DNA of 64,000 nt. Origin: Rhodothermales bacterium (GTDB lineage: Bacteria; Bacteroidota; Rhodothermia; Rhodothermales; JANQRZ01). Under the pieces are notes generated by a model. That model ran no database searches. It saw only the letters and a list, made by a program, of their open reading frames with translations, and had not been told where the DNA came from. Of this stretch, positions 12,506-55,383 are shown in pieces. Location of the stretch: contig JANQRZ010000003.1 in NCBI GenBank assembly GCA_028284265.1, positions 62,001-126,000 on the forward strand, read 5' to 3'. Numbering within the stretch: the first letter of the stretch is position 1; the number at the start of each line of letters is the position of its first letter. The translations under genes were made by a program, and so were the position numbers.

Positions 12506-13402
12506 CTAGGCTTCCACGGCAGTATGCTCGTGCCGACGGCGGGCCGCGTCGAGCGTGTTCTTGAGCAGCATCGCAATCGTCATCGGGCCGACGCCGCCGG
12601 GGACCGGCGTGATCCAGCCCGCGATCTCCTTCGCCGCCTCGAAGTCCACGTCCCCCACGAGTCGGTAGCCGCGCTCGCGTGAGGCGTCCTCCACGCGGTT
12701 GATCCCGACGTCAATCACCGCTGCGCCAGGCTTGACCATGTCCGCCGTCACAAAGTGGGGGCGACCAATCGCGGCGACGAGAATGTCGGCCTGCCGGGCG
12801 ATCTCGGCGAGGTTCTTCGTCCGGCTGTGGCAGACGGTGACGGTGGCATCGGTGCCGCGTTTCAGGAAGAGATTCGCCATCGGCTTGCCAACGATGTTGC
12901 TTCGCCCGATTACGACCGCGTGCGCGCCGCTCGTCTCGATCCCGCTTCGCTCCAGCATTTCGATGATACCGGCAGGCGTGCAGGGCACGAACCCGGCCTC
13001 GCCGATCACAAGCCGACCAGCGTTCTCCGGGTGGAAGCCGTCCACGTCCTTGTCTGGGTCCAGCGCGTGGATCACCTTCGAGTCGTCGATGTGGTCCGGC
13101 AGCGGAAGCTGGACGAGGATGCCATCCACGGTCGGGCTGGTGTTCAGTTCGTCGATGAGGGCGAGCAGGTCGAGCTCCGAGATGTCCGCGGGGAGATGGA
13201 TCGTCTCGCTATCGACCCCTGCTTCGGACGCGGCGCGGATTTTGGCGCGGACGTAGGACGCGGAGGCGGGGTGGTCGCCGACGAGGACGACGCGGAGGGC
13301 CGGAGGCGCGTGACCGGCTTGCGTCCAATCCTCGACACCGGCGCGCACGTCGGCGCGCACGGCAGCGGCGATAGCTTTTCCGTCGATCAGTTGGGCGGAC
13401 AT
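12506..13402 (-). CDS. folD: Bifunctional methylenetetrahydrofolate dehydrogenase/cyclohydrolase
   Basis: Interconverts 5,10-methylene-, 5,10-methenyl- and 10-formyl-tetrahydrofolate in one-carbon metabolism. 298 residues, typical length. Signatures are [14 protein letters not shown]-like ([18 protein letters not shown]), [20 protein letters not shown], the NADP site [17 protein letters not shown], and the C-terminal [20 protein letters not shown]. It starts the minus-strand run that continues with the MscS and DUF481 genes. The divergent asd gene begins 127 bases away, so that gap should hold both promoters. Confidence 0.97.
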
Positions 13403-37622: not shown

Positions 37623-38312
37623 ATGAACCTCCGTTCCTACCTCGCCGAATTCATCGGCACGTTCTTCCTCGTCTTCTCGGGCACCGCCGCAATCCTCGGC
37701 TCTGTCCTCACGGGCTACGATGGCACCGTCGCTATCCCGTTCGCCTTTGGCCTCGCGCTCGTGGTTGGCATTTTCGCGGTCGGGCACATCAGCGGGGCGC
37801 ACTTCAACCCGGCGGTGACGATTGCCTTTGCCGTCGGGCGGCACTTCCCGTGGAGCCAGGTCGGGCCGTACCTCGGTGCCCAGTTGCTCGGCGGCGTTGC
37901 CGCGAGCGGTGTACTCGCCCTCGCCTTTGGCGGAGCCGACGGGTTCACGGCGGGGCCGACGGTGCCGGGCGAAGCGGCTATAGCCCTCGGTACCGTCATG
38001 CCGGTGCTCATCGCCGAGTTCTTCGCCACGTTCCTGCTGATGTTCGTCATCACCGCCGTTGCCACGGACACGCGGATCGTGGGCGTCCCGGCGGGTCTCG
38101 CGATTGGCTTCACCGTTGCCACGATGGCCTTTGCTGTAGGATGGGTCGGCGGCGGCTCATTCAACCCGGCCCGCTCGTTTGGCCCCGCGCTCGTGGACGG
38201 GACCTGGACGATGCACTGGCTCTACTGGGTCGGCCCGATCCTCGGAGCCATCGCTGCGGTGACCACCTACAACTTCATTCGCGGCAGCGACTCCGACGGT
38301 CCTGCTGTATGA
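37623..38312 (+). CDS. Aquaporin (MIP family, AqpZ-like)
   Basis: 229-residue inner-membrane water channel. Both half-helix NPA motifs are intact: VGHISGAHFNPAVTIAF near residue 60 and GGSFNPARSFGPALVDG near 180, the second with the selectivity-filter Arg. The AqpZ-like HISG..HFNPAVT context and the short loops favour water over glycerol, an inference. Six hydrophobic helices are visible. It is convergent with the ATPase gene of the MscS operon (47-base gap), placing three channel genes side by side. Confidence 0.95.
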   Translation: MNLRSYLAEFIGTFFLVFSGTAAILGSVLTGYDGTVAIPFAFGLALVVGIFAVGHISGAHFNPAVTIAFAVGRHFPWSQVGPYLGAQLLGGVAASGVLALAFGGADGFTAGPTVPGEAAIALGTVMPVLIAEFFATFLLMFVITAVATDTRIVGVPAGLAIGFTVATMAFAVGWVGGGSFNPARSFGPALVDGTWTMHWLYWVGPILGAIAAVTTYNFIRGSDSDGPAV

Positions 38313-38359: not shown

Positions 38360-41300
38360 TCAGAGCATATTCTTCGCCCGGAGCGCGTTGGTGACCGGGG
38401 CGACGACGAGCGGATGGAGGCGGTACCGGGCTTCCTCCTGCACCGTTTTTACCGGAGGGGTTGCCGACCCGTTGCGGCGGGCCGAGAGTGTGGCATCTGG
38501 TCCGTCGGTACGCTGGATGAGGCGGAGGTTGTGGAGCGACTCGAAGATGAGGAAGCTCTCCTCGCGGCTGGTGCGGAAGATGCGGTCGTGCTCGGCGAGG
38601 CTGAGGCTGCCGTGCTGGAGGAGCGCTTTGAGCGCGAACGAGCGCGGAAGGTCGAACCCGCTGACGAAGCTGAAGTCGAGCGGACGGACAGAGCCTAGGG
38701 AGAGCGTCTCGGTGGCGGCCTCATCGGTGTCGCGTTGGACATCGGCGGCGCGGAGCCAGTAGAGGAGGGCGAGGCGGAGGTTGGGACCGCTGGCCCGGTA
38801 GAGGCTGTCGAAGAAGTCGCTGCGGAGGATGGCTTGCTTGGCTTCGGTCGTCTCGGCCTTGTTCAGTCGCCGGGCCAAGAGCGGAGTCGGTTCCGTCGGT
38901 TCGGCGAAGGTGAGCGGGAGACCGCTTCGGGCGTGGCGCTTCGTGAGTGCCGTCTCAACCTCGTCGCGCGTGAGCGGAGGGAGCGTCACCGTATCCACGA
39001 GGCCGGTGATCTGCGGAGCCGTCCGCTCCACAAACTGCCACCCCGGTAGCACGGCGGTGCCCACCCACATCACGCGGGTGTCGGTGCGGGAGAGGAAGAT
39101 CAGCGTCCGCTCGATCAGGTCCAGTCCGTCGGGGGCGCGGAGGATGAGGTGTTGCAGGCCTTCGAGCAGGCAGACGTACCGCCGGTCGGCGTAGGCGCTG
39201 GAGAGCAGGAGCGATTCCAGCATCTCGAAGGTGCGGATCGTGTCCCCCAGGCCGAGGGCTTCGGCGATCCGTGAGGCCATCGCTTCCTCGGACTCGATGC
39301 GCTCGGTGAGGACAAGCCGCGCCGGGTTGTCATCCTGAAAAATGGTGGACTCGATGACGTTGAGGAACGAGGTGCGCCCGCCGCCCGGCTCGGCGGTGAC
39401 GACGAGGGTGCTCGTGTCGCGGCCCGCGCGCCAGCGCTCGACTTGCTCGGCGATGCGAGTTAGCTCTGCTGCCCGGCCCACAAAGAGGGTGGGGTCGGTG
39501 ACCGGCTTGAACGAGAAGAGGCGGCGGTAGACGAGTGGGAGGCCGGTGTGGAGGGTCGCAGACTCGGCGAGGGCATCGAGCGTGCGGCGTCGGTCGGAGG
39601 CGCTCTGCTCGGCCAGTCCCGCCGCCTGCTGCCCCATCTCAACGAGCCGCTTGGCTTTGCCGCGTCCGAAGCGGAACCACTTCTGGAGCGCGGTGCGCGA
39701 CTGCTCGCCGAGGGCCGCCGCCTGAGCTTTCAGGCGCTCAATCGTCTGACTCGTCCGTGCTTTGAGGTCAAGGAGTCCGGCGGCGACGAGGTTCTCAGCG
39801 TTCGAGCGGTTGTGCAGCGTGGTCCAGCTTCCTTCGAAGATTTCGGTAGCCCGGCGCACGAACGCCTGCCACGGCTCAGCCAGCGGTGCGGCGACCCCAA
39901 CCAGCCGCTCCTCGGCGCGGGCGAGGCCGTCCACTGTCAGTTCGCGGGCGTTGGCGAGAACGTCGGTCTCTTCCTCCTCGGGATCGTCAGGCTCCAGAGG
40001 GGCCTCGGTACCCTCCAGTTCTTCAATCGCCGTTTCGATGTTGAAGCGGACGATGTCGCGGACGTTCTCGGCCTCGACGAGGGCGGTGAGGATGGGCTGT
40101 CGCAGCGACTCGGCACTCTTGACAAGGCGGGCTGCGAACTCCTCGCTCAACGTGGAGCCGACGATCTTGCGAAGCTCGACCTCGGCAGCAGCACCGGGAT
40201 GGCCGGCATGGTCCGGCCCGAGGCGGGCGTGCAGCGTGACGCGCTCGGGCAGTGGGCGGACCATCTCGGTGAGGCGTGTCCGCGTGGCGGCGACGGCCTC
40301 CTCGACGGCGCGCTCCAGCGAGATCGGCTGGAGCGCCGGGAGCATGGTGCGGTCGAGGTGGGTGAGGGCGCGGCGGAGTAGGTCGCGCAGGGCCTCGGCG
40401 AGAGGAGTGGGGGCGTTATGCTGGTCGCAGGCGGTAGCTGCTTCGGCTCGTAACGCCTTTAGTTCTTCGGCGGCGCGCTCCACAGTAGTCTGCACCGGTA
40501 GCACGACGGCTTCGGCGACGCGGTCCACGAGCACGTTCACCTCGTCGATGAGTTGGCCGCGCAGGTTGAGTAGCAGGCCGTCCACCCCGAGCCGCCGGAT
40601 GATGTTGCGGTGCCAGCCGCTCCAGCGCTCCACGGCGGCGCGAAGCTCGCCAATCGGATCGCCATCGCCGGGTCGCACCGGGCGGTCGCTGTCGTAGCCA
40701 CTGCGGCGGACCCGCTCGGCGAGGCGGTCTCGGGCCGCATCGAGGCCTGCTTCATCTACCGGAGGCAGCGTAAACACCGCTTCGTGCAGCGCCACATCGA
40801 GGTCCTGCACGACCTCGCGCACGCGCCGCACCTTCGCCATGAGTTCGGCCTCTTCGGGCGAAACGGTCTCCTCGGGCGGGACCTCCTCAACCGGAGCAAT
40901 TTCAGCCTCCCCGTCTATCGTCTCACCGTCCACCGCCTCGCCGCCCTCTGCCTGCTGTTCGCTGTCTGCTGCCTGTTGCGCTTCCGGCCACGCGATGGCT
41001 TCTGCTGTGTGGAAGCGCGGTCGGTCGAGGCCGGACTCCAGTCGGAGCAGGTCGCCCGCCCACGCGGCGAAGGCGGCTTCGATCTGGGCTACGCACTTCC
41101 CGATCTCGGTCTGCACCAGTTCGTGGTCGGTGAGCAGGAGACGCGGGATGCGGAGCTGTGCCTGCTCGGTCAGGAGGGCGCGGATCGGGACGGTTTGCGC
41201 GTGCGCCGGTGCCGCGCGCGGCGTTTTTCCGATGACCCGACGGAGGCCGTTGGTGATGCCGAGGCCGACGGTGCGGGTGCGCCGCCGCGATCGCTCGCCC

Positions 41301-41773
41301 AGCTTACGAGCAATCAGCGCGAGGCTGTCGCCTGCTTCTGTCTCGACCAGCCCCGCCGGTTCGGGGCGGACCAACGCCTCGGGTGCGTCCTCGGCTTCGA
41401 GAACGAGGGCGTCGGCGTGGGTCTCATAGAGGCCGCCGAGTTCGTTGCCGAGGTCGAGGTCCCGAAGGCGCTCGCGGAAGGTCGTGTAGATGTCCTTCAT
41501 CGCTGCCCGGTACGTCGTCAGGGCGTCCCACAATATTTCGGGCGGTCGGGGCGGATCGTCGAGCGGTCGGTCGAAGCCGTGGGTCGTCATCTCACGGCGA
41601 TGCGCCTCGGCGGTCTCGGCGATCAGCCGTTGCAGCGGCTCGCTGGCTTCGCTCCCGACGGCCTCACGCAGCGTGCCGACGGCTTCGCGTGCGCTCCGGT
41701 CGAACGCATCGAGGCGGTCGTGTAGCTCGGCCTCGGCGTCGAGCCAAGCGTTAGGGGGGAGCGGCTCGGTCAT
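38360..41773 (-). CDS. Giant P-loop (AAA/STAND-like) protein with long helical N-terminus
   Basis: 1137 residues, no membrane helix or signal peptide. About 750 residues of charged alpha-helix come first (for example DVLANARELTVDGLARAEERL), with an acidic disordered linker near 268-310. An ATPase module begins at about 765 (DPTLFVGRAAELTRIAEQVE); its P-loop is VVTAEPGGGRTSFLN, with Arg where Walker A has Lys. A Walker B-like strand reads RYVCLLEGLQHL, and a sensor-like strand RVMWVGTAVLPG. The C-terminus (about 1050-1137) resembles a winged helix (SFALKALLQHGSLSLAEHDR, RLHPLVVAPVTNAL). It starts in an ATGA overlap with the MscS gene upstream. I recognise no named family; regulator of, or adaptor for, the channels is an inference. 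Confidence 0.75.
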   Translation of the reverse strand: MTEPLPPNAWLDAEAELHDRLDAFDRSAREAVGTLREAVGSEASEPLQRLIAETAEAHRREMTTHGFDRPLDDPPRPPEILWDALTTYRAAMKDIYTTFRERLRDLDLGNELGGLYETHADALVLEAEDAPEALVRPEPAGLVETEAGDSLALIARKLGERSRRRTRTVGLGITNGLRRVIGKTPRAAPAHAQTVPIRALLTEQAQLRIPRLLLTDHELVQTEIGKCVAQIEAAFAAWAGDLLRLESGLDRPRFHTAEAIAWPEAQQAADSEQQAEGGEAVDGETIDGEAEIAPVEEVPPEETVSPEEAELMAKVRRVREVVQDLDVALHEAVFTLPPVDEAGLDAARDRLAERVRRSGYDSDRPVRPGDGDPIGELRAAVERWSGWHRNIIRRLGVDGLLLNLRGQLIDEVNVLVDRVAEAVVLPVQTTVERAAEELKALRAEAATACDQHNAPTPLAEALRDLLRRALTHLDRTMLPALQPISLERAVEEAVAATRTRLTEMVRPLPERVTLHARLGPDHAGHPGAAAEVELRKIVGSTLSEEFAARLVKSAESLRQPILTALVEAENVRDIVRFNIETAIEELEGTEAPLEPDDPEEEETDVLANARELTVDGLARAEERLVGVAAPLAEPWQAFVRRATEIFEGSWTTLHNRSNAENLVAAGLLDLKARTSQTIERLKAQAAALGEQSRTALQKWFRFGRGKAKRLVEMGQQAAGLAEQSASDRRRTLDALAESATLHTGLPLVYRRLFSFKPVTDPTLFVGRAAELTRIAEQVERWRAGRDTSTLVVTAEPGGGRTSFLNVIESTIFQDDNPARLVLTERIESEEAMASRIAEALGLGDTIRTFEMLESLLLSSAYADRRYVCLLEGLQHLILRAPDGLDLIERTLIFLSRTDTRVMWVGTAVLPGWQFVERTAPQITGLVDTVTLPPLTRDEVETALTKRHARSGLPLTFAEPTEPTPLLARRLNKAETTEAKQAILRSDFFDSLYRASGPNLRLALLYWLRAADVQRDTDEAATETLSLGSVRPLDFSFVSGFDLPRSFALKALLQHGSLSLAEHDRIFRTSREESFLIFESLHNLRLIQRTDGPDATLSARRNGSATPPVKTVQEEARYRLHPLVVAPVTNALRAKNML

Positions 41774-42993
41774 GCGTCGGCAGGCGGGTCGGCGGCGGCT
41801 TCGGAGGGCGTGACGATGGGGCTGGGCGGCTCGCCGTCAGCCGGAGTCGTGGCTTTCGCCCGTGCCTCTTGGTCGGCTTCAACGACCTCGTCGAGGTAGT
41901 CGTGCAGCGTGGACATCGGGGTGAGCAGGCCGTGCCGGATGAACTCGGCCTTGGCGGCCTCGGTCACGTCGCTCATCAGCAGGAACTCGTAGCGCGTGTC
42001 GAGGACGTAGGCTTTCACCTTGAGGAGGAGCAAAAAAGTCTCCTTGAACTCGTCCTTGGCGATGACTACGATGGGCTTGTTGAGGTAGACGTACTTCGAG
42101 TTGGCGGCGGCTTCGTAGGCGATCCGCTTGGCGAGCGCCACGTCCACCCACCCCGGCAGGTACAGTTCAGTCACGACCTGCAGGTTCAGCTCGCCCGCAT
42201 TCGCGTTCGACACCTGCCCGTCCACGATCTGGGCATTCGGCACCGAGACGAGGTTATCGTCCGGCGTCACGATGCGGGTCGAGCGGAGGCCAATCGAGAC
42301 CACCTCGCCGTAGGTGCCGCCGACGGCGATTTTGTCGCCGACTTGGAACGGTTGGTCGAGGATAATGACGATACCGCCGAAGATGTTCTTGAGCACCTCC
42401 TGCGCTGCGAAGCCGACGGCCACACCGATAGCGGCGGCGGCGGCGAGCAGGCTGTTGGCGGGAATCTGGAAGATCGCCGCGATGACGAGATAGACCGCGA
42501 GCGCCCAGACGAGCAGCCGGACGATCGGGACGAGGCGTTTGTAGAACAGCCGCCGTTCGGCAGTGCGGGCCGCGAGCGCTTCGAGCAACCAGACCAGTCC
42601 TCGCAGCAGGTAGAGTGCCGCGATGAGCAACAGGATCGAGACCAGCAGCTTCGGCACGAAGTTCTGGATGGCGTCCTTCGCTTCCTGCCCGACCCGCTCG
42701 ACGGTTTCTTGGGCCGTGTTCCGTCGGGCGGTCGTGTCGCGGACGACGATGGTATCGACCCGCGCCGGGCGCTCGGCGAGGGCGCGGGCGAGGCTGTCGT
42801 TCTGCGCCGCGAGGCCGACGATGGCGGCGCGCAGCATGGCAAGTTCGCCCGTCAGGCTGTCTTCGGGGACCACCTCCACTGGCGGCGGTGGGTTCGCAGG
42901 AGCCGTCGTGTCAGCCGGAGCTTGGGCCGCAACGGGACCTGCCGCCCCGAGGAGGGCGGCGAGCAGGACGAGGCAGGCGAACCGAGAAATCAT
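41770..42993 (-). CDS. MscS-family mechanosensitive channel with signal peptide and linker
   Basis: 407 residues. Signal peptide (CLVLLAALLGAAGPVAAQ), a periplasmic Pro-rich linker and coiled coil (LTGELAMLRAAIVGLAAQND), then three helices around residues 125-215. The pore helix and MscS core read AAAAAIGVAVGFAAQEVLKN and ILDQPFQVGDKIAVGGTYGEV. The C-terminal cytoplasmic domain ends in an acidic/proline tail. It lies 11 bases after the other MscS gene and overlaps the ATPase gene by four bases (ATGA). The start at 42993 was chosen for the clean signal peptide. Confidence 0.92.
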   Translation of the reverse strand: MISRFACLVLLAALLGAAGPVAAQAPADTTAPANPPPPVEVVPEDSLTGELAMLRAAIVGLAAQNDSLARALAERPARVDTIVVRDTTARRNTAQETVERVGQEAKDAIQNFVPKLLVSILLLIAALYLLRGLVWLLEALAARTAERRLFYKRLVPIVRLLVWALAVYLVIAAIFQIPANSLLAAAAAIGVAVGFAAQEVLKNIFGGIVIILDQPFQVGDKIAVGGTYGEVVSIGLRSTRIVTPDDNLVSVPNAQIVDGQVSNANAGELNLQVVTELYLPGWVDVALAKRIAYEAAANSKYVYLNKPIVVIAKDEFKETFLLLLKVKAYVLDTRYEFLLMSDVTEAAKAEFIRHGLLTPMSTLHDYLDEVVEADQEARAKATTPADGEPPSPIVTPSEAAADPPADA

Positions 42994-43004
42994 AGCGGGA
43001 CGCC

Positions 43005-43916
43005 TCAAGGATACGCTGCGTCGGAGGCAGGCCGTTCGCCCTCGCTCTCGATCTGCACGGCCAGCGGCGTGCCGCCGAGTGGGGCCAGTTGGATCGTCTC
43101 GAACGGCATATCGACCCCCGCCTCGGTGAGTACCTTGTAGACCCGCTCGCGCAGCCGAAATCGTTCCGCTTTGTGGGCACGCTCGTCGCGGAGCCACGCC
43201 TGAAGCTCGACCTCCACGTTGTAGTCGTTCAGCGCGGTCACCACCACGCGCGGCGGTGGCTCGTCGAGGAACGCGGGGTCCTCCTGAACCAGACCGAGGA
43301 GAAGGCTTCGCGCCCGCTCGATGGGTTCGTTGACGCCAATCGTGACGGGGATGTCGAGGCGGAGGTGGGGGAAGTTGGTGTACGAGGCGACGGTCGTGTT
43401 GATGATGACCGAGTTGGGGACAGCCAGCATCCTGCCGTCAACGGTCACGACGCGCGTCGAGCGGAGGGTGATCGTATCGACCCGCCCGTAGCTGTCCTCG
43501 ACCTCGACGAGGTCGCCGATGACGAAGGGGCGGTCCCAGAAGATGAGCAGGCCCGAGATCAGGTTCGAGAGCGCGTCGCGGGCGGCGAACCCGACGGTGA
43601 GACCGGCGATGCCGAGGCTGGCGATGACGGCTCCCGTATCGATCCCGACCGCCGCCAGCGCCTGCACCACGCCGAAGGTGAGCAGGAGAAACTTGAACAC
43701 CGTCTTGAGGAAGCTCTCGGAGGTCGCGTCCACGTTCGAGCGGCGGAGCACGAGGCGGAGGCCCCGGTCCAGCACGCGCCACAGCAGGTAGAAGGCGGCG
43801 AGGACCAGCAGACCGACGACGAGGTCTGCTAGGAAGGAGGCAATGGAGGCTCCGAGCAGCTCCGGGTCGAACTCATCCCGAAGGCGGTCGAGGACGCCGC
43901 TGATAAAGCGTTGCAT
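43005..43916 (-). CDS. MscS-family mechanosensitive channel
   Basis: 303 residues, first gene of the three-gene operon. Helices lie at about residues 28-50, 68-85 and 90-115, then the pore helix VIASLGIAGLTVGFAARDAL and the beta domain IFWDRPFVIGDLVEVEDSYGRV. The cytoplasmic alpha/beta domain runs to about 285. It lacks the signal peptide and extra periplasmic part of the following paralogue. The channel should gate on membrane tension; two different MscS subunits in one operon could form separate or mixed channels. Confidence 0.93.
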   Translation of the reverse strand: MQRFISGVLDRLRDEFDPELLGASIASFLADLVVGLLVLAAFYLLWRVLDRGLRLVLRRSNVDATSESFLKTVFKFLLLTFGVVQALAAVGIDTGAVIASLGIAGLTVGFAARDALSNLISGLLIFWDRPFVIGDLVEVEDSYGRVDTITLRSTRVVTVDGRMLAVPNSVIINTTVASYTNFPHLRLDIPVTIGVNEPIERARSLLLGLVQEDPAFLDEPPPRVVVTALNDYNVEVELQAWLRDERAHKAERFRLRERVYKVLTEAGVDMPFETIQLAPLGGTPLAVQIESEGERPASDAAYP

Positions 43917-44018
43917 AGGCGGGCAGGCGGCAGGGCACGAACCCTGCTAGGATAAACCGGCGCTCCAACACCGTCAAGTAACGCGGGATCCCGACGCTGT
44001 TCGCTGCTCTCACATTTC

Positions 44019-46703
44019 CTATCGCAGAAGCAGCACCTTCATCGCTTGCCGCCACCCGTCGGCCTCCAGCACGACGAGGTAGACGCCGCTTGCCAGTCGC
44101 GCCCCGTTGAGGGTAGCACGGTGCGTCCCTGCTACCATCTCACCGTCTTCGAGCACCGCCACCTCACGGCCTAGCACATCGATGACCGAGAGACGCACAC
44201 GGCCCGCTTGCCCGACCTCAAACGGTACCGTCGTGCTCGACCGGAACGGATTGGGGTAGGCTGCGCCGAGTGAAAAGCCCGTTGGCTGTCCCGGCCCTTG
44301 GTCTTCGGCACTAACAGGCAGCAGGCGCTCGTTGGCGTCGAAGCGGATTACGGTGCCGACGGGCGGCGTAGCGCCGTCGCCCGCGAGGTCGGCTAGTTGG
44401 ATACCGTCGAGGCCGCCGACGGGGGCAACGAAGCGGGCATCGGCACCCCGGTAGCAGAAGTCGATGTAGTACCCTTGGCTTCGTGCGTTGCACATCGGGT
44501 CGTCCTGCGTGTCGCCGTCGTTCTCCGGGTCGTAGGTCGCGCCCGCGCCGCCGAAGCCGTTGGCGGCGGCCTCGAACAGGGCATAGCCATTTGGGCGGTC
44601 CGGCATCGTCCAGAGGACGCGATGCGTGGCGTTCAGCGTGAGGGTGTCGTCGCCCGCGATGACGGCTTGCTCGGCCGTGTAGGCATTGGCCCAGTTGGCT
44701 ATCGGGTCCTGACCGCTCGGGGCGCGGAGAACCGGAATCATACGGACTTCATCGGTGTCGTCGTCTTTAGCTCCGGTGTTCCACAGCTCGAAGGGGACGC
44801 TCGTGATGAGGTTGGTGCCGCCGGGGACCGCGACCGAGTAGACGCCGAGGCAGGCACCGGGCGAGGCGCAGGTATCGGTGAAGCGCATCTCGAAGTCGTC
44901 GCCCTCAATCGTGTTCTCGTTGCGGAGGAGGTCGTCGAGATCGGTGTCGGGGTTGGTGAGGACGTAGTCGGCGGTCGCGTTGGGGTCGAGCCAGACCGTG
45001 TTGCCGCCGTAGCGGTCGCAGCCGGGGTCGCCCGCGTCGGGGCAGACTGCACCGCTGGGGTTGGCGACCTCGACGATCCCGCTGCCGCTGCCGAAGCCGT
45101 CGGCCTCGTAGCGGTAGAACGTGAACGAGCGCACGTCGGAGAAGTCGCCCGTCAGCAGGCCACGCGCGGTCGCCTGCACGCGCCACGAGTAGGTCGCCAG
45201 TTCGTTGATCTCGCCCTCGAAGACGAAGCTGGTCTCGGCGGAATAGAAGACCTCGCGCTCGGCGAAGTCCGCATCGCTGGCGACCTCGATGCGGTAGCTA
45301 TCTGTCTCCGGCGCCGCCGTCCACGAAAGCGGCACCTCCACGTCTACGAACGTCGCACCCTCGTCGGGCGTGAGCAGGGTCGGTGTGCCGAGGAAGCCGG
45401 GGCCGGGCGGCGTCGGACCGGGGACGAAGAGGGTGCCCGCGTCGTAGCGCGTCTGCACGGCGTCGGACGCTGCTTGCAGCAGGGCGACCGAGGCGAGGCG
45501 GTCGTCACCCTGCCGGAAGAGGAGGGCGAGGTCGAACGTCTTTGCTTCGCCGGGAGCCAGCGTGAAAGCAGGCGACGAGATGATGTTGCGCCGGTCGCCG
45601 GATGGATTCGGGACGCCCGTGCCGTCTGGATTCTCTTCGCTCCAGAACTGCCCGGTCACAGGGTCGCCGGGGAAAACCCACACGGTGGTATCGCCATCGG
45701 TCATGTACCCGTCGCCGCCTTCGGTAACTGGCGTCCCGTCGCCCCACCTACCTTGCATGAAGTTGTATTTGAGTGTGCCGGTGTCTGGGTCGCCGATTGC
45801 AGGATCAGCCGCTCCTTGGAAGTAGGTTGCGGTGTCGCCACCGGTGAGGAGGTCGTAGCCTATCGCCGGTGGTGTGGGATAGACGCCATCTTCCTCCGCT
45901 TCGTTATAGGAAAAGGCCATCGAGCGTGTCGAATCGCTCCCGATGAAGTCGTCGGCGGCATCGCCGAGATCAGAGTCTGCGAAGAAGGTGAAGCGAGCCT
46001 CTTCGAACGGGACGCTGTTCCGGTTCACCAACTCGTAGCGGTAGAACGTGTGTCGGTCCAGCGCTAACTCGCCCGAGGCAAACGCCGTCACCCGCACTTC
46101 CAGTCCAAGCGGCTCGGTCCTGCTCTCTCGGTGCTCGTTGCCGACATCGTTCATCACCCAGAACGCCGTCTGGTGCCCGTAGACCAGCGGACGGTCGCCT
46201 GCCGCGAGGTCGTAGTTGTCCGGGGTCCCGTCGCCGTCCACGACCGCCGCGCCTAGCTCGACGGGCCACTCGGCGAGGTCGGCTGTGGCGATGCCTGTGT
46301 CGTCGTACTGCTGGAGGTCGAAGACGCTGACGTTCCAGATGCGGTCGTAGGCCGAACAGTCGTTGGGATTCGGCAGCGTGCCGTCCTCGTTCAGCGGTCC
46401 CGGCCAGAACTCGAAGTCATCATACCGCGAGCCTGCCGCCCGGAGATCGCCGTTGACGAGGCCCGCGACCCAGAGGCCGGAAGCGAAGATGGGCGGTGTG
46501 CGGTCACCCTTGGGGACGAGATAGCCGAGGCCATTCGTGGTGGAGCCGCCATAGAAGAGACTGCCCGTGTTGAAGAGCTTGGCCTGCACGTCGCCGATGT
46601 TGAGGTCGGTCTCAGCGGTGCCGAGGTCGCAGTCGCCCGGCGTCTGGGCAAGGGCAGCGGGTGAGAGGGCGACAGCGGCGAGGAGGAGCGGCAGAAGGCG
46701 CAT
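44019..46703 (-). CDS. Large secreted protein with fibronectin-like region and T9SS type A sorting domain
   Basis: 894 residues. Signal peptide MRLLPLLLAAVALSPAALAQ; an N-terminal beta-rich region with GGSTTNGLGYLVPKGDRTPP and ASGLWVAGLVNGDLR, a pattern I know from large exported Bacteroidota proteins; a fibronectin III-like segment near residues 455-525 (VPLSWTAAPETDSYRIEVAS, LATYSWRVQATARG); and a complete C-terminal sorting domain (YPNPFRSSTTVPFEVG, SVIDVLGREVAVLEDG, ASGVYLVVLEADG, MKVLLLR). No catalytic motif is visible; probably a surface protein. It stands alone between MscS and receiver-like genes. Confidence 0.9.
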   Translation of the reverse strand: MRLLPLLLAAVALSPAALAQTPGDCDLGTAETDLNIGDVQAKLFNTGSLFYGGSTTNGLGYLVPKGDRTPPIFASGLWVAGLVNGDLRAAGSRYDDFEFWPGPLNEDGTLPNPNDCSAYDRIWNVSVFDLQQYDDTGIATADLAEWPVELGAAVVDGDGTPDNYDLAAGDRPLVYGHQTAFWVMNDVGNEHRESRTEPLGLEVRVTAFASGELALDRHTFYRYELVNRNSVPFEEARFTFFADSDLGDAADDFIGSDSTRSMAFSYNEAEEDGVYPTPPAIGYDLLTGGDTATYFQGAADPAIGDPDTGTLKYNFMQGRWGDGTPVTEGGDGYMTDGDTTVWVFPGDPVTGQFWSEENPDGTGVPNPSGDRRNIISSPAFTLAPGEAKTFDLALLFRQGDDRLASVALLQAASDAVQTRYDAGTLFVPGPTPPGPGFLGTPTLLTPDEGATFVDVEVPLSWTAAPETDSYRIEVASDADFAEREVFYSAETSFVFEGEINELATYSWRVQATARGLLTGDFSDVRSFTFYRYEADGFGSGSGIVEVANPSGAVCPDAGDPGCDRYGGNTVWLDPNATADYVLTNPDTDLDDLLRNENTIEGDDFEMRFTDTCASPGACLGVYSVAVPGGTNLITSVPFELWNTGAKDDDTDEVRMIPVLRAPSGQDPIANWANAYTAEQAVIAGDDTLTLNATHRVLWTMPDRPNGYALFEAAANGFGGAGATYDPENDGDTQDDPMCNARSQGYYIDFCYRGADARFVAPVGGLDGIQLADLAGDGATPPVGTVIRFDANERLLPVSAEDQGPGQPTGFSLGAAYPNPFRSSTTVPFEVGQAGRVRLSVIDVLGREVAVLEDGEMVAGTHRATLNGARLASGVYLVVLEADGWRQAMKVLLLR

Positions 46704-47795: not shown

Positions 47796-50700
47796 TTACG
47801 TGCTCTCGTCGTCTTGGGCGGACGAGGGCACGAGCATCTCGCCCTCATAGGCCGACGGTACGACGCCGTACACGTCGCGGAAGGCGCGCGTGAAATACGA
47901 CACGCTGTTGAACCCCACCGAGTAGGCTATCTCGGCGACGGTGCCCGTCTCGCGCTCCAGCAGCCCCGCCGCTTGGCGCAGGCGGTAGCGGCGGATTAGC
48001 TCCGTCGGGGATAGGCCGAACAGCTCTTGCGTTTTGCGGCGGAGGTGGGCCGGACTCAGCCCGACCGCCTCGGCCAGCGGGCCAGCGGAAAAGTCTCCGT
48101 CCGCAAACTGTCCGTGGACGATCTCGTGGAGTTGCGACCGGAGCGCGTCGTCGGCAGCGGGGAGGTCGGCAAAGGCGTCTTCGAAGGGCAGCTCGGGCGG
48201 TGCCGGTGCGTCAAGGCGCTCCCGCCACGCGCGGCGCGAGGCGAGGAGGTTGTCGATCCGCGCCCGCAACTCCGGCGCGTAGAACGGCTTCACCACGAAG
48301 TCGTCGGCCCCGGTTTCGAGGCCCTGTACCTTGCTCACCGCCGCGCCATCGGCGGTCAGAAGGATTACCGAGACGAACTGGAGGGCGGGGTCCTCCTTGA
48401 TGGCTGTGGACAGTTCATAGCCATCGAGCCCCGGCATCCGCACATCGGAGATCACGAGGTCGGGCACAATGGCGCGGGCTTTCGCCAAGCCTTCCGTGCC
48501 ATTGGCGGCTTGGACCACATGGAAGGACGGGGCGAGGAGGTCGTGGATGTAGCCGCGCACGTCGTCGTTATCGTCCACGACGAGGATGGTGGTACTGTCT
48601 TCGGGCGACGTGTCCGGCGCGGGGGCTTCGAGGCTACGGAAGAGAAGCTCCGGGTTGTCGCCGAGCGCGAACTCTGCGAGGGGCGCGGCTTCGCCGCTGA
48701 GGGCTTGGCGCGGCCACTCCATCGTGAAGGTGGTGCCTGCGCCGAGGGTGCTTTCGACGTGGATCTCGCCGCCGTGAGCGCGGGCGATCTCGCGCACGAG
48801 GGCCAGCCCAATGCCCGTGCCCGGCTCCTCCATCGTCGCCCGCTCGAAGCGGTCGAAGACGTGCTCTAGGTGCTCCGGGGCGATGCCGGTGCCGGTGTCC
48901 TCCACCGAGAGCGTCACGTTCTGCTCCGACGCTGACAGAGCGACGTGAACCCGCCCGCCTTCCGGCGTGAACTTGAGTGCGTTGCCGAGCAGGTTGAACA
49001 GCACGACCTCCAGCATCGCCGGGTCGGCGGTGACATCGAGCGGTGCGTCCGGCACGGTCACGGTGAGCGTCTGCTCCCGGTCGCGGGCGAGGTCCTGAAA
49101 GGCGTGTACCACCCCCTCAACGAACTCGGCGAGGTCGAACCGGCGCGGTTGGAGCGGCGCGCCGCCGCTCTCCAGTCGGGCAAGGTCGAGGATCTGGTTG
49201 AAGAAGAACAGCAGGCGGTGCGCGTTGCGCCGTACGAGTGTCAGCGCGCGCCGCGTACTAGGGTCGAGGTCGGTTTCGAGCAGTTGTTCGACGGGGCTGA
49301 GGATGAGCGTCAGCGGGGTGCGCGTCTCGTGGCTGAGGTCGGCGAAGAGGCGGCGTTGCTGCGCACTCTGGGTGAGGAGCGCGTTCGCCTGCTGCTCGGT
49401 CAATTCCTTCTCGGCCTGAAGAGCCGCGGTGCGCTCTCGGACGAGGTGGCGCAACTCAGCCTCGCGCCGACGGATCGCTTGGGAGCGGTAAAACAGCGCC
49501 ACGCCGAGGGCGGTCACGGCAAATACGAGCGCGAGCAGGCGGAACCACCATGTCGCCCACAGCGGCGGGCGGATCGAGAAGGCGAGCAGAGCCGCATCCT
49601 CGCTCCACACCCCGAATGGATTGGCGGCCCGGAGGTAGAACGTGTAGTCGCCGGGGGGCAAGTTGGTGTAGCGGACCTGAGGCCGGGCGATGATGTCGCT
49701 CCAGCCCGTGTCATATCCTTGCAGTCGGTACTGGAAGCGGTTGAGCGCTGGGTTGCTGAAGTGCAGCGCGGTATACCGGAACGTGAGCGTGTTCTGGTCC
49801 GGGTCGAGCGGTTCGCTGAACGTCTCGCCGTTGATGTGGGTGGGCAGTCCGTTGATGAGAAAGCCGGAGAGGGCAAGGCGTGGCGGCATCTGGTTGTCCA
49901 CGAGCGCCGCCGGGGCGAACACATTGAGGCCTTGGATACCGCCAAAGAGAAGCACCCCGCTCGCCGAGCGGGCGTAGGCCCCCCGGTTGAACTCGTGGGA
50001 TTGCAGACCCCGGTCCACCGCGTAGGTGATAAACGTTTCCGTCTCCGGGTCGAAGCGCGTCAGCCCTTGGTTGGTACTGAGCCAGAGATGCCCCCGGGCG
50101 TCACCGAGGACGCCATTGATGAAGTTGTCCGGCAGGCCGCTGTTCTGCGAAGTGTAGCGTACTACGGTACCGGTCTCGGGGTCGAAGCGGTTTAGACCGG
50201 CGAGCGTCCCAAGCCAGAGGATGCCGTCACGGTCGGCCCAGATGCTCTGCACATTGTCGGACGAGACCGACGTGGCGTCGCCGGGGAGGGGACGGTAGGC
50301 CGTCGTGTCGCCCGTGCCGAGGTCGTACCGAACAAGGCCCTGTCCGCTGGTCGCCAGCCAGAAAGCATCATCCTCAGTATGCAGGCGGTGGACAGGGAAC
50401 GGAGCGTCCGGCGTGCCGAGGACGGGCGTGAAGCGTCCGCTCTCCGGGTCGAGTCTGCCGAAGGTCGGGTGGCCCACCCAGCGTCGCTCCTGCGGGTCCT
50501 CGAAGAGAAACGTGGGTGCGGGCGTGGCCGCATAGTCTTCTGGTATCGGGTAGCGTCGCAGGAGGCGGCCCGTCTGTGCATCGCGACGCTCATACCGATC
50601 TTGGAAAGATGCCCATAGCGTGCCCGATCGGTCGAGGCTGAGGCCCCACGCCGTCTGCTCCGCGCCGAAGAGGTTTTGGGTGGTCGCATCGAAGGGCGGG

Positions 50701-51872
50701 TCGGGGAGCCGCTCGATGGCGCGGGTGCGAAGGTCCATCCGAGCGATGCCTCCGCGCGCAGTCCCAATCCAAGCGGTCGTCGCGTCTGCCACGATGGAGC
50801 GGACAAACGGGTTAGCCAAGGTACTTGGGTCGTCCTGAACGAAGGAGTACAGCGGGAAGCGACTCGTAAGAAGGTCGGCATAGATGATCCCGGTGCCGTT
50901 CGTGCCGAGCCAGAGTACCCCATCAGAACTGGTGAAGATCGAGACGAAGGGCAGGAGGCCGGGCAGGCTCGGGAGGTCCACGTAGGTATCGAGCAGGAGC
51001 GTTCCCGTCCCGGTGTCGGGATCGAAGAAGGTCATGCCGTCCCGCGAGAGCACCAGCAGCGACCGCTCGCCGTAGGTCACGAAGCTCTGGATCAACCCAT
51101 CCACCACCGAGCGGAAATCATCGAACTGCTGCGTGATGGGGTCGTAGCGCAGCAGGCCCTCCGTCGTGCCCACCCAGAGGTGACCGCTTTGGGCCAGCAG
51201 AAATCGGGTCGGGGCGTAGGCACTGGGGTCAGAACGCGCTGGGGGCAATGGAATCGACTCCCACGTTTCTGCCTCGGCATCGATGCGGAGGAGCGTGCCT
51301 TCCGCGCCGGTCCAGACCGTCGAGCCGATGGCGAGGACGGTGCTCTGCACCGCGTGGGGGCCGAGCGGTACGCGGCGAGCCTCGCCCGTGGCAGGGTCTA
51401 GACGGGTCAGGCGTTCAGCCCCGACCGTCCAGAGCGCCCCATCGTCGGTCTCAGCGATGCCCTGTATGCGGTGGGGTACTCCTTCGTCTTCGGGCGAGGC
51501 CGCGAACGGATAGTGGTGGAAGGTGCCGTCCGGGCGGAAGCGTGCCAAGCCAAGATTCTGGGTCCCTGCCCAGAGGGTGCCGTCTCGGGTCACCGTGAGG
51601 GCGAGCACCGTCATCTCAGGGAGCGAAGCGGGGTCGTTCGGGTCTGGCTGGAAAACCGTCACCTCGTGCCCGTCAAAGCGTGCCAGCCCACCGACTGTCC
51701 CGAACCACATGTAGCCCGTGCTGTCTTGGGCCATGCTGGTTACGAAGTTCTGGGGCAGTCCGTCTTCGTTCGTGAGGTGGTGGAACCACAACCCTTCCGG
51801 CGCTTCGTCAAGCGGGGCTTGGGCGAGCACACCTCCCCCAGCAAGCACGACAGCAAGGACCAATGCCGCCAT
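47796..51872 (-). CDS. Hybrid two-component system regulator (propeller sensor, kinase, receiver, AraC HTH)
   Basis: About 1358 residues in one chain. Signal sequence (ALVLAVVLAGGGVLAQ); two-component-regulator propeller repeats over about residues 30-690 (for example GTLWAGTQNLGLARF, HLWLSTNQGLTRFDPETE); a Y_Y_Y domain (VRYTNLPPGDYTFYLRAANP); membrane helix near 775; HisKA box FADLSHETRTPLTLILSP (His about 846); HATPase N box LFNLLGNALKFTPEGG; receiver ILVVDDNDDVRGY with acceptor in LVISDVRMPG (about 1142); and a C-terminal AraC HTH (IAYSVGFNSVSYFTRAFRD). In gut Bacteroides such proteins sense glycans and activate polysaccharide genes; no SusC/D pair is in this window. A Bacteroidota promoter precedes it. 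Confidence 0.96.
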   Translation of the reverse strand: MAALVLAVVLAGGGVLAQAPLDEAPEGLWFHHLTNEDGLPQNFVTSMAQDSTGYMWFGTVGGLARFDGHEVTVFQPDPNDPASLPEMTVLALTVTRDGTLWAGTQNLGLARFRPDGTFHHYPFAASPEDEGVPHRIQGIAETDDGALWTVGAERLTRLDPATGEARRVPLGPHAVQSTVLAIGSTVWTGAEGTLLRIDAEAETWESIPLPPARSDPSAYAPTRFLLAQSGHLWVGTTEGLLRYDPITQQFDDFRSVVDGLIQSFVTYGERSLLVLSRDGMTFFDPDTGTGTLLLDTYVDLPSLPGLLPFVSIFTSSDGVLWLGTNGTGIIYADLLTSRFPLYSFVQDDPSTLANPFVRSIVADATTAWIGTARGGIARMDLRTRAIERLPDPPFDATTQNLFGAEQTAWGLSLDRSGTLWASFQDRYERRDAQTGRLLRRYPIPEDYAATPAPTFLFEDPQERRWVGHPTFGRLDPESGRFTPVLGTPDAPFPVHRLHTEDDAFWLATSGQGLVRYDLGTGDTTAYRPLPGDATSVSSDNVQSIWADRDGILWLGTLAGLNRFDPETGTVVRYTSQNSGLPDNFINGVLGDARGHLWLSTNQGLTRFDPETETFITYAVDRGLQSHEFNRGAYARSASGVLLFGGIQGLNVFAPAALVDNQMPPRLALSGFLINGLPTHINGETFSEPLDPDQNTLTFRYTALHFSNPALNRFQYRLQGYDTGWSDIIARPQVRYTNLPPGDYTFYLRAANPFGVWSEDAALLAFSIRPPLWATWWFRLLALVFAVTALGVALFYRSQAIRRREAELRHLVRERTAALQAEKELTEQQANALLTQSAQQRRLFADLSHETRTPLTLILSPVEQLLETDLDPSTRRALTLVRRNAHRLLFFFNQILDLARLESGGAPLQPRRFDLAEFVEGVVHAFQDLARDREQTLTVTVPDAPLDVTADPAMLEVVLFNLLGNALKFTPEGGRVHVALSASEQNVTLSVEDTGTGIAPEHLEHVFDRFERATMEEPGTGIGLALVREIARAHGGEIHVESTLGAGTTFTMEWPRQALSGEAAPLAEFALGDNPELLFRSLEAPAPDTSPEDSTTILVVDDNDDVRGYIHDLLAPSFHVVQAANGTEGLAKARAIVPDLVISDVRMPGLDGYELSTAIKEDPALQFVSVILLTADGAAVSKVQGLETGADDFVVKPFYAPELRARIDNLLASRRAWRERLDAPAPPELPFEDAFADLPAADDALRSQLHEIVHGQFADGDFSAGPLAEAVGLSPAHLRRKTQELFGLSPTELIRRYRLRQAAGLLERETGTVAEIAYSVGFNSVSYFTRAFRDVYGVVPSAYEGEMLVPSSAQDDEST

Positions 51873-51961
51873 CGGTCGTACAGAGCAGGCGAGTCGTGGG
51901 TGGGGTGAACAGGGCACAACGAAGGAGCCGCGAGGGGTGAACCATGCCACGATCAGTAAAA

Positions 51962-51993
51962 CAAACGTACAACATAAGGGTGCACAGGACAAG
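51962..51993 (-). promoter_or_regulatory. Bacteroidota-type promoter of the hybrid two-component gene
   Basis: On the minus strand CTTG (complement of 51990-51993), a 20-base spacer and TACGTTTG (complement of 51962-51969) fit the Bacteroidota consensus TTTG-N19/21-TAnnTTTG. It lies about 90 bases upstream of the start at 51872 in the divergent gap. Confidence 0.6.
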
Positions 51994-53313: not shown

Positions 53314-55383
53314 CTAGTCTCGCGACCGCTCGATGAGTACGAGGTCGCTCTCGATCCGCTCAGTGCGGGCGACGACGAGGGTGCGCCCGTCCGGCGTCGC
53401 CGTTAGTCCAACCTCGCGCAGCGGAACGTTTGAAGCGTCGAAGGCGACAGAGAGGGTCTCGGTTTCAGGGTCAAGACGGAGCACGCGGGCCTCGGCTTCG
53501 GTTCGGTCTACCCAGAACAGGCCCGCCTCAGTGGCGGCCCAGTTTCCCCAGTCGAGGGCCGAGAGGCGGTCGGTCACGAGGCGCACTGGACCGCCTTCGA
53601 CCGGCCTCGCCCACAGGCCTGGCTCAAAGTAGCGCGTGAAATAGAGTGTCGCGCCGTCGGGCGATTCCATCGCGGCGAAGCCTTTGTCGGTCGTGACCTG
53701 AACCGGCGGCCCGCCCTCGGTTGGCACCTTCCAGACCTGCCACGTCCCAGTGCGGTCGGAGCCGAAATAGACCCAGTACCCGTCGCGTGAGGGACGCGGG
53801 GCCACGTCGTAGCCCTCGGCATCGGTCAGCGGTTGCAGCGTGCCCCCCTCGGACTCGACGGTGTAGATGGCGGCGTGTCCGTCGCGCTGCACCTCGAAGG
53901 CGATCCGTCGCCCATCGGGGAACCACGCTGGGGCACCGAGGCCCGCCCCGCCGAAGTCCGTCAGGCGTAGCGGCTCTGATCCATCGCGCCGGGTCACCCA
54001 CAGTTCGTTCGTCCCGGACCGATCCGAGATAAACGCGAGGCGCGAGCCGTCCGGCGAAAGCGCAGGCTCGCGGTCGGCAGCGGTGGAGACGACGAGCGGT
54101 CGTGTGCCGAAGTCCCCGCTGTCTATTGGCGTCGCTTCCCACAGATTAACCTCTAGCGTCCACGACTCGATCACGGCTCGGTCGGTGTGGGTAGTGAGCG
54201 AACCCGGATCACGGAGCGCAGGCAGGGCGGCACGTTCGATGGGGTCTCCGTCACGCGGCACGCGCCAGAGGTTGATCGCCCCCTCGCGGCGCGCTGAGAA
54301 GAGGAGGCTTTGGTGGTCGCCTGCCCACCCGAAGCCCCGAATCCGCCCTTCCTCATCGGTCAGTTGAAACGATGTTGTACGGTCAGGCGGCAGCAGATAG
54401 AGGTTCTCGACGCCGCTCTGGCTGTGGCGGACGAACGCGAGGCTACCGTCCGGAGCCGCCGCCGGGATGAGGTCGCCGAGCGCGCCGTCGGGGGGTGTCG
54501 TGAGGACCTGACGTTCGCCGGTAGCGAGGTTGAGGCGGAGGAGTTGGTAGGGAGCCGTTACGGTGTCGCGGTCCACCACGATCACGGCGTCGGCGTCCGG
54601 TGCCCACGCGAGGCCATAGGGTGAGACGGTGGTCTCGGTCCGTCGGCGCGGTGTGCCACCGGGCACCGGCAGCGTGTAGACGCCGCAGCGGAGATCGACA
54701 CACCGCAGGAAGGCCAGCGCTTGCCCGTCCGGTCGCCACACCGGCAGGATGTCGTTGGCGCGAGCATCGGTGAGTTGGAGGGGCGATTCAGCGTCGAGGT
54801 GCTGGACGAACAGGTGGTAGAACATGCTGTCGCGGTCGCGGGCCGCGAAGGCGAGGCGCTGCCCGGACGGGTCGAGCGCGGGGTAGCGTTCGATACCCGC
54901 CGCGCGCGTGATCGGTCGGACCGAGGCAGTTGGTTCGGGCGTTGGCGCTCGCTGGAGGAAGAGGACGAGCGCCACCATCACCGCGAGCGCACTGAGACCG
55001 AACGCGAGAACGAGGAAGCCACGGGACACCGTCGGCGGAGTAGCGATGGGGTGGGGTGTCGGCGTGGCTTCAGTCACGGGCGCGACGAGGCGGTAGCCGG
55101 TACGCGGGATCGTCTCGATATAGGCCGGGTTGCGCGAGTCGTCGCCGAGGACGCGGCGGAGCTTCGACACGGTCCCGCTGAGGGCGTCGTCGGTGACGAC
55201 GGTGCCGGGCCAGATGCGCTCCAACAGGTCGTCGCGCGAGACAGCCTCGCCCGGACGCTCGGCCAGTGCGACGAGCACCTCCATCATCTTCGGCTCAACG
55301 CGCACCGCCTCGCCGTCGCGCACGAGTTCGTTGGCCGCCGTGTCGGCGAGCCAGGCACCAATCTTCAGTCGGGGTGACGGCAT
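53314..55383 (-). CDS. CadC-like membrane transcriptional regulator with PD40 propeller
   Basis: 689 residues. An OmpR/CadC winged helix occupies residues 1-105 (VRVEPKMMEVLVALAERPGE, VSKLRRVLGDD, YIETIPRTGYRLVAPV). A Pro/Thr linker and one membrane helix follow (RGFLVLAFGLSALAVMVALV, about 122-145), then a TolB/WD40-like propeller of PD40 repeats to the end (for example LSPDGSRLAFISDRSGTNEL). The N-terminal DNA-binding domain should be cytoplasmic and the propeller periplasmic, so it is a one-component regulator sensing outside the inner membrane. The divergent target may be the T9SS gene at 55566 (inference). Confidence 0.92.
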   Translation of the reverse strand: MPSPRLKIGAWLADTAANELVRDGEAVRVEPKMMEVLVALAERPGEAVSRDDLLERIWPGTVVTDDALSGTVSKLRRVLGDDSRNPAYIETIPRTGYRLVAPVTEATPTPHPIATPPTVSRGFLVLAFGLSALAVMVALVLFLQRAPTPEPTASVRPITRAAGIERYPALDPSGQRLAFAARDRDSMFYHLFVQHLDAESPLQLTDARANDILPVWRPDGQALAFLRCVDLRCGVYTLPVPGGTPRRRTETTVSPYGLAWAPDADAVIVVDRDTVTAPYQLLRLNLATGERQVLTTPPDGALGDLIPAAAPDGSLAFVRHSQSGVENLYLLPPDRTTSFQLTDEEGRIRGFGWAGDHQSLLFSARREGAINLWRVPRDGDPIERAALPALRDPGSLTTHTDRAVIESWTLEVNLWEATPIDSGDFGTRPLVVSTAADREPALSPDGSRLAFISDRSGTNELWVTRRDGSEPLRLTDFGGAGLGAPAWFPDGRRIAFEVQRDGHAAIYTVESEGGTLQPLTDAEGYDVAPRPSRDGYWVYFGSDRTGTWQVWKVPTEGGPPVQVTTDKGFAAMESPDGATLYFTRYFEPGLWARPVEGGPVRLVTDRLSALDWGNWAATEAGLFWVDRTEAEARVLRLDPETETLSVAFDASNVPLREVGLTATPDGRTLVVARTERIESDLVLIERSRD

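Follow-up and report, generated by a model that had tools for sequence, protein, structure and literature searches.

Organization of the locus

The window analyzed here, a 64,000-nucleotide stretch of contig JANQRZ010000003.1 (positions 62,001 to 126,000) of the Rhodothermales bacterium assembly GCA_028284265.1, carries three closely packed open reading frames on the minus strand, which encode two channels of the MscS family (MscS-1 and MscS-2) and a large protein hereafter termed P (Table 1). An earlier note on this DNA had described an 11-nt gap between the first two genes and an ATGA overlap between the last two, and the three frames and both junctions lie exactly where it had placed them: MscS-1 and MscS-2 are joined by CCTTGA-GGCGTCCCGCT-ATG, and MscS-2 and P by GCATGACC. 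The mechanically called MscS-2 frame opens at a GTG at position 43197; the ATG at position 42993, which is followed by a signal peptide, is the likelier start.

The two channel genes are indeed distinct members of the family, as that note had held, the PF00924 beta-domain being detected by Pfam search in both MscS-2 (E = 2.3e-20, 72.9 bits) and MscS-1 (E = 1e-18, 67.6 bits) against a cut-off of 20.2 bits. Both share with the E. coli MscS/MscK/MscM family the combination of this beta-domain with a pore helix, recognized as TM3 from the transmembrane pattern and conserved in the alignment of MscS-2-type partners. MscS-1 covers nearly the whole profile of E. coli MscS, whereas MscS-2 departs from the family by its signal peptide and periplasmic linker and gives no Pfam match to the standard C-terminal vestibule model. 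In around half of the MscS-2-type partners of the same clade, the signal peptide contains a lipobox (LAAC in locus L042, LSGC in L048, for instance), so that their N-terminus is predicted to be lipid-anchored, with a long linker in the periplasm ahead of TM1; the signal peptide of the window protein lacks the lipobox cysteine.

Table 1. Features of the MscS/P locus (window coordinates).
Feature	Position	Strand	Description
Promoter-like site	43949..43977	-	TTGACG-17-TATCCT, weak; 33 nt before MscS-1; consensus scan only
MscS-1	43005..43916	-	303 aa, canonical MscS; PF00924/PF21082/PF21088 matches
MscS-2	41770..42993	-	407 aa; signal peptide, periplasmic linker, 3 TM, beta-domain; ATGA overlap of its stop with the P start
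P	38360..41773	-	ORF, 1137 aa, soluble
P, long-helix domain	39614..41773	-	Residues 1-720; two diverged repeats (~1-300, 300-720)
P, signature PLVYRRLF	39515..39538	-	Residues 746-753, before the P-loop; near-invariant in three alignments
P, AAA+-fold domain	38669..39547	-	Residues ~743-1035, Orc1/Cdc6-like (Foldseek, VIA-align, profiles)
P, degenerate Walker A	39368..39385	-	GGGRTS, residues 797-802; R800 replaces Lys
P, Walker B-like strand	39161..39178	-	LLEGLQHL, ending in Glu871; no canonical D-E pair
P, RHxxSG motif	38921..38938	-	Residues 946-951; R946, H947, S950 and G951 invariant or nearly so
P, C-terminal winged helix	38363..38656	-	Residues ~1040-1137 (model secondary structure, 2d1h profile match, Orc WHD alignment)

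MscS-2 and P form the conserved unit

The proposal that all three genes make up one unit did not survive comparison with a sister species (L039). There, MscS-2 and P come immediately after the homologue of the window gene at 44019-46703, without an intervening MscS-1, and the MscS-1 orthologue (81% identity) sits on a different contig; in the window genome, MscS-1 lies between the 44019-46703 gene and MscS-2. The conserved unit is MscS-2 with P, and MscS-1 is an incidental, lineage-specific neighbor. The overlap between an MscS-2-type gene and P, either ATGA or 8 nt long, is found in nearly all relatives with the MscS-P gene order; its recurrence across phyla indicates that it is not due to chance. 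Some other Rhodothermales have a second, divergently oriented MscS gene beside the MscS-2/P pair, and in loci L066 and L082 an extra MscS gene is also found behind P. On the other side of P, a convergent aquaporin (MIP) gene (37623-38312, plus strand) is kept in the sister species; in many other Rhodothermales the convergent neighbor is a 279-aa gene, and in L046 it encodes a sigma-70-type factor.

P combines a long helical domain with an Orc1/Cdc6-like AAA+ fold

Hydropathy analysis detected no segment of membrane-spanning length in P, in keeping with a soluble protein. The AlphaFold model computed from a 36-sequence alignment (pLDDT 85.9) is nearly all helix up to about residue 717, after which come a P-loop domain of alpha/beta type and a winged helix; this agrees with the architecture originally read from the letters, namely some 750 helical residues, a P-loop module and a winged-helix-like C-terminus. 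The two repeats of the helical domain match each other when aligned half against half (hhalign E = 8.7e-6, probability 83%), and residues 1-720 modelled on their own gave a pLDDT of 87 and a pTM of 0.77. This domain has no structural match in the PDB or among the viral models of BFVD at E ≤ 0.001. VIA rows with Z 8-13 were obtained for designed bundles, catenin, dynamin stalks and BAR domains; as such scores are in the range expected of generic helical arrangements, we claim no kinship for the N-terminal part. A similarity of residues 374-481 to CorA was also discarded, the PDB phmmer E-values of 0.6-1.6 being at chance level for long helices.

The AAA+ domain gave 2v1u as best Foldseek match (E = 4e-7), and VIA-align superimposed P on Orc1/Cdc6 structures (2v1u, 2qby, 1fnn, 7jgr) with Z 15-16 over 238-287 residues. 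Profile searches concur, the AAA part matching ClpB and Cdc6 and the C-terminal end the wHTH regulator 2d1h. P is thus predicted to have the succession of an AAA+ fold and a winged helix that is seen in the Orc1/Cdc6 clade. It differs from these proteins, with which it shares only 12-20% identity, by its 720-aa helical domain, by the absence of a Walker B acid pair and by the loss of the Walker A lysine in its clade; P is, moreover, without link to replication genes.

In Pfam, only sub-threshold AAA_16/AAA_22 matches cover approximately residues 764-907, and no named family was found for P in NCBIfam, PADLOC or PHROGs, which bears out the initial impression that the protein belongs to none. 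Its relatives can be recognized by two signatures, of which one, LPxxYRRLF, precedes the P-loop and the other, RHxxSG, follows the AAA core. We use the succession LPxxYRRLF, P-loop, RHxxSG and winged helix, together with an adjacent MscS gene, to delimit the proposed MscS-linked P family, and the window locus displays all of these elements. In one Balneolota genus (L173-L176), P is reduced to 413-433 aa comprising the AAA+ fold and winged helix; the helical domain is gone and the MscS gene is still adjacent, from which we take the AAA+/winged-helix part to be the irreducible core of P.

The P-loop is eroded in the clade of the window

The sequence GGGRTS of the window protein departs from the Walker A consensus GxxxxGK[ST], and LLEGLQHL departs from the Walker B consensus hhhhDE; in relatives, Asn or Gly rather than Glu usually comes after the Walker B acid (D or E). 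None of the 51 loci in which MscS lies upstream of P, the window clade, has the Walker A lysine, its position being occupied by Arg (22), Val (12), Ile (8), Leu (3), Met (2), His (2), Gln (1) or Ala (1), whereas 46 of the 49 loci with MscS downstream have it. The "ATPase" label first given to this protein is therefore not established: because of this loss, P is classed here as an AAA+-fold protein and not as an active AAA+ ATPase. Judging from these motifs, the window P would hydrolyze ATP poorly and probably not at all.

An MscS gene adjoins P in all judgeable loci

Homologues of P, mostly full length, were found in 23 of 60 related genomes and, with a patchy distribution, in 72 of 394 genomes across the phylum; profile searches extended the family to Gemmatimonadota, Balneolota, Bacteroidota and Myxococcota. 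In total, 117 non-redundant P loci (from Rhodothermota, Balneolota, Bacteroidota, Gemmatimonadota, Myxococcota and others) were assembled, and ORFs were called in all of them and searched for MscS and the P core. An automatic count found a same-strand MscS gene next to P in 100 of the 117 loci, 51 of them with the channel gene upstream of P and 49 with it downstream. Manual inspection settled another five. In L043, L093 and L101 the frames are nested, and L086 has an MscS fragment where its contig ends; L117, whose overlapping ORF is cut by the contig end, was counted as probable only. In the remaining 12, judgement was precluded by contig ends, by masking (L115) or, in L079, by the small size of the P fragment (107 aa). 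An MscS gene therefore adjoins P in 105 of 105 judgeable loci (104 shown, one probable) belonging to at least four phyla, as compared with an estimated chance of ~0.6% for a random gene, given 9 MscS genes among ~3200 genes per genome. The check set beforehand asked whether P homologues from unrelated genera would have MscS genes at their side; they do so in every locus open to judgement, and in unrelated phyla. In the P tree, the loci with the MscS-P order group together in a single supported clade.

An apparent MscS::P fusion in L043 (a frame of 1540-1578 aa) was dismissed: the upstream frame stays open across an MscS gene that is separate from P and overlaps it by ATGA. The L079 fragment (13071-13394), a match to the P C-terminus (E = 5e-14), lies 5 kb behind an intact pair, has no adjacent MscS and is possibly a decayed second copy of P. 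Pairs are also carried by metagenome-assembled genomes titled Gammaproteobacteria or placed in Pseudomonadota (L081, L088, L091, L096 and L097). The two of these that were tested, L081 and L088, nest inside the Gemmatimonadota clade of the P tree; as this could reflect transfer or mis-binning, Gammaproteobacteria were left out of the phylum count.

The two genes are also linked by their joint absence. Twenty Rhodothermales genomes without P yielded only Clp-type AAA matches (E ~1e-6 or weaker), and the MscS-2 type was absent from them as well, their MscS matches being partial, with 24-38% identity and E ≥ 1e-26, whereas the MscS partners of P are 42-82% identical to MscS-2 (42-59% for partners in other genera and phyla). 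MscS-2 and P are thus acquired and lost together. The pairwise distances between P cores and those between their MscS partners are correlated (r = 0.72; 0 of 2000 permutations), in part through shared descent, and the same architecture groups recur in both the P and MscS trees.

Relatives of P are fused to cation transporters and share operons with TrkA and TrkH

In Myxococcota and some Bacteroidota, the P homologue reaches ~1500 aa, with a CPA Na+/H+ exchanger fused at its N-terminus (PF00999, E = 7e-19 to 1e-22), and lies in an operon of the order TrkA-TrkH-[NHE::P]-MscS. In a further branch (L177-L179), the P module is fused to an AA_permease/SLC12-type (K-Cl-like) cation-chloride cotransporter domain, which matches TIGR00930 (E = 6e-118, positions 73-825 of 936) without reaching the whole-protein cut-off. 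The AAA+ module of these three proteins has a canonical P-loop and a small MscS gene lies directly downstream, the encoded channels being unusually small (243-245 aa in L178 and L179). None of the CPA and SLC12-like families searched has a described P-like C-terminus; conversely, the transmembrane domains fused to these distant relatives are absent from the window P. A single cytoplasmic module is thus joined to cation transporters of two unrelated kinds, with MscS as its neighbor in every case, and we conclude that it has its place in osmotic and cation homeostasis. The regulated tension-sensing system suggested at the outset, osmotic or defensive, is accordingly retained in its osmotic half, which the fusions and the TrkA/TrkH operons uphold, and dropped in its defensive half, against which both the defense searches and the stable neighbors speak.

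Discussion

MscS is a textbook channel gated by membrane tension alone, and we know of no studied MscS that has an obligate soluble AAA+-fold partner. MscS, AAA+, CPA, CCC and Trk are all established families. Neither a named model of the libraries searched nor a paper of the open-access literature searched covers the P family, its obligate association with MscS or its fusions to transporters, which may be new; that literature also yielded no report of an MscS with an AAA+ or STAND partner. The closest analogy in plan is offered by the TrkH-TrkA, KtrB-KtrA and Kef-type K+ systems, in which a membrane transporter is combined with a cytoplasmic regulator of nucleotide-binding fold; TrkA and TrkH even share one operon with the P gene in Myxococcota and Bacteroidota. 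P differs from these regulators in that it has an AAA+ fold rather than an RCK/KTN Rossmann fold, is paired with MscS and is not a member of the TrkA family.

P is probably an undescribed regulator of the salt and pressure balance of the cell. More specifically, we favor, with moderate confidence, the view that it is the dedicated cytoplasmic regulatory partner of MscS-2 and represents an undescribed family of modules controlling osmotic and monovalent-cation transport. On the cytoplasmic side, P would bind the vestibule of the MscS-2 heptamer, setting the gating or inactivation of the channel according to the state of the cytoplasm, be it ionic strength, crowding or a bound nucleotide, and solute release through MscS-2 would thereby be matched to K+/Na+ transport. 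Regulation is favored because fusion to complete transporter domains amounts to permanent cytoplasmic attachment. In the window clade, P without the lysine may be a non-hydrolyzing switch or scaffold rather than a motor, since its P-loop is eroded and yet it is as tightly linked to MscS as its relatives with an intact P-loop. We give roughly even chances to a wider reading, that of a hitherto unrecognized bacterial volume-control module in which an Orc/Cdc6-like AAA+ fold is combined with three unrelated transport families (MscS channels, CPA antiporters and cation-chloride cotransporters) and coordinates the release valve with ion uptake or exchange; in one whole clade, the module would have turned into a pseudo-ATPase, gating or scaffolding MscS with no hydrolysis of ATP.

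Regulation of gating would be one way of coupling P to MscS, and a role in assembly, localization or turnover would leave the same genomic traces. P might thus be an assembly, localization or quality-control factor, an AAA-fold chaperone or scaffold that would insert, cluster or stabilize MscS-2 and related transporters and leave their gating untouched. The resemblance of its AAA+ fold to ClpB as well as Orc in profiles, its scaffold-like long helical domain, the overlap of the two genes and the loss of the catalytic lysine, which fits a structural role, are all compatible with such a function. We nevertheless regard it as rather unlikely, as the fused P module, which follows CPA and CCC transporter domains that are themselves complete, is held in a permanent 1:1 attachment that suits a regulatory domain better than a transient assembly factor and, to our knowledge, most other MscS proteins need no assembly factor.

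The winged helix of Orc1/Cdc6 proteins binds DNA and, these being the nearest structural neighbors of P, the winged helix modelled in P could do the same. That P is a DNA-binding AAA+/winged-helix regulator of osmotic-gene transcription, co-encoded with the channel by happenstance, is however improbable, given that its module is joined to a membrane transporter in two fusion branches and that conservation peaks in YRRLF and RHxxSG, not in the winged helix.

P also shares with STAND NTPases (nSTAND1, AAA_16-type) a VGR-type lead-in, a P-loop, a winged helix and a weak profile similarity, which in some relatives takes the form of sub-threshold nSTAND1, nSTAND6 or KAP matches (nSTAND1 at 23.2 bits against a cut-off of 27.1 in one relative, nSTAND6 at E = 0.0099 in one, none for the window P), and one plant NLR resistosome (6j6i) appears in the Foldseek list. 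P differs by lacking a match at curated cut-offs and a visible repeat sensor domain, by its eroded motif and by its ion-transport context. A defense or suicide system, with P as STAND/NLR-like sensor on the strength of its P-loop and winged helix and MscS as membrane-permeabilizing effector, is very improbable: the window P belongs to no PADLOC family and four relatives gave a single match (mads_8, E = 3e-4, ~100 profile positions), no close homologue was found in the phage, plasmid and viral-contig searches, the flanking genes are chromosomal and stable in related genera, the catalytic lysine is lost clade-wide, and the partners in fusions and operons are Na+/H+ and K-Cl transporters and TrkA/TrkH.

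If P regulates MscS-2, many bacteria would control an MscS valve from the inside and tie it to ion uptake, which would amount to a prokaryotic form of cell-volume control. The P family supplies a natural series for the role of the nucleotide, with members whose P-loop is intact, members that have lost the lysine and members that have lost the helical domain, and the relation between MscS-2 and P is directly testable with a two-gene cassette.

Two other minus-strand genes of the window encode proteins with propeller repeats. The first (47796-51992) specifies a 1398-aa hybrid two-component protein with a Reg_prop propeller, Y_Y_Y, HisKA, HATPase and receiver domains and an AraC-type HTH; the second (53314-55383) a 689-aa protein in which an OmpR-type DNA-binding domain is followed by PD40/WD40-like propeller repeats.
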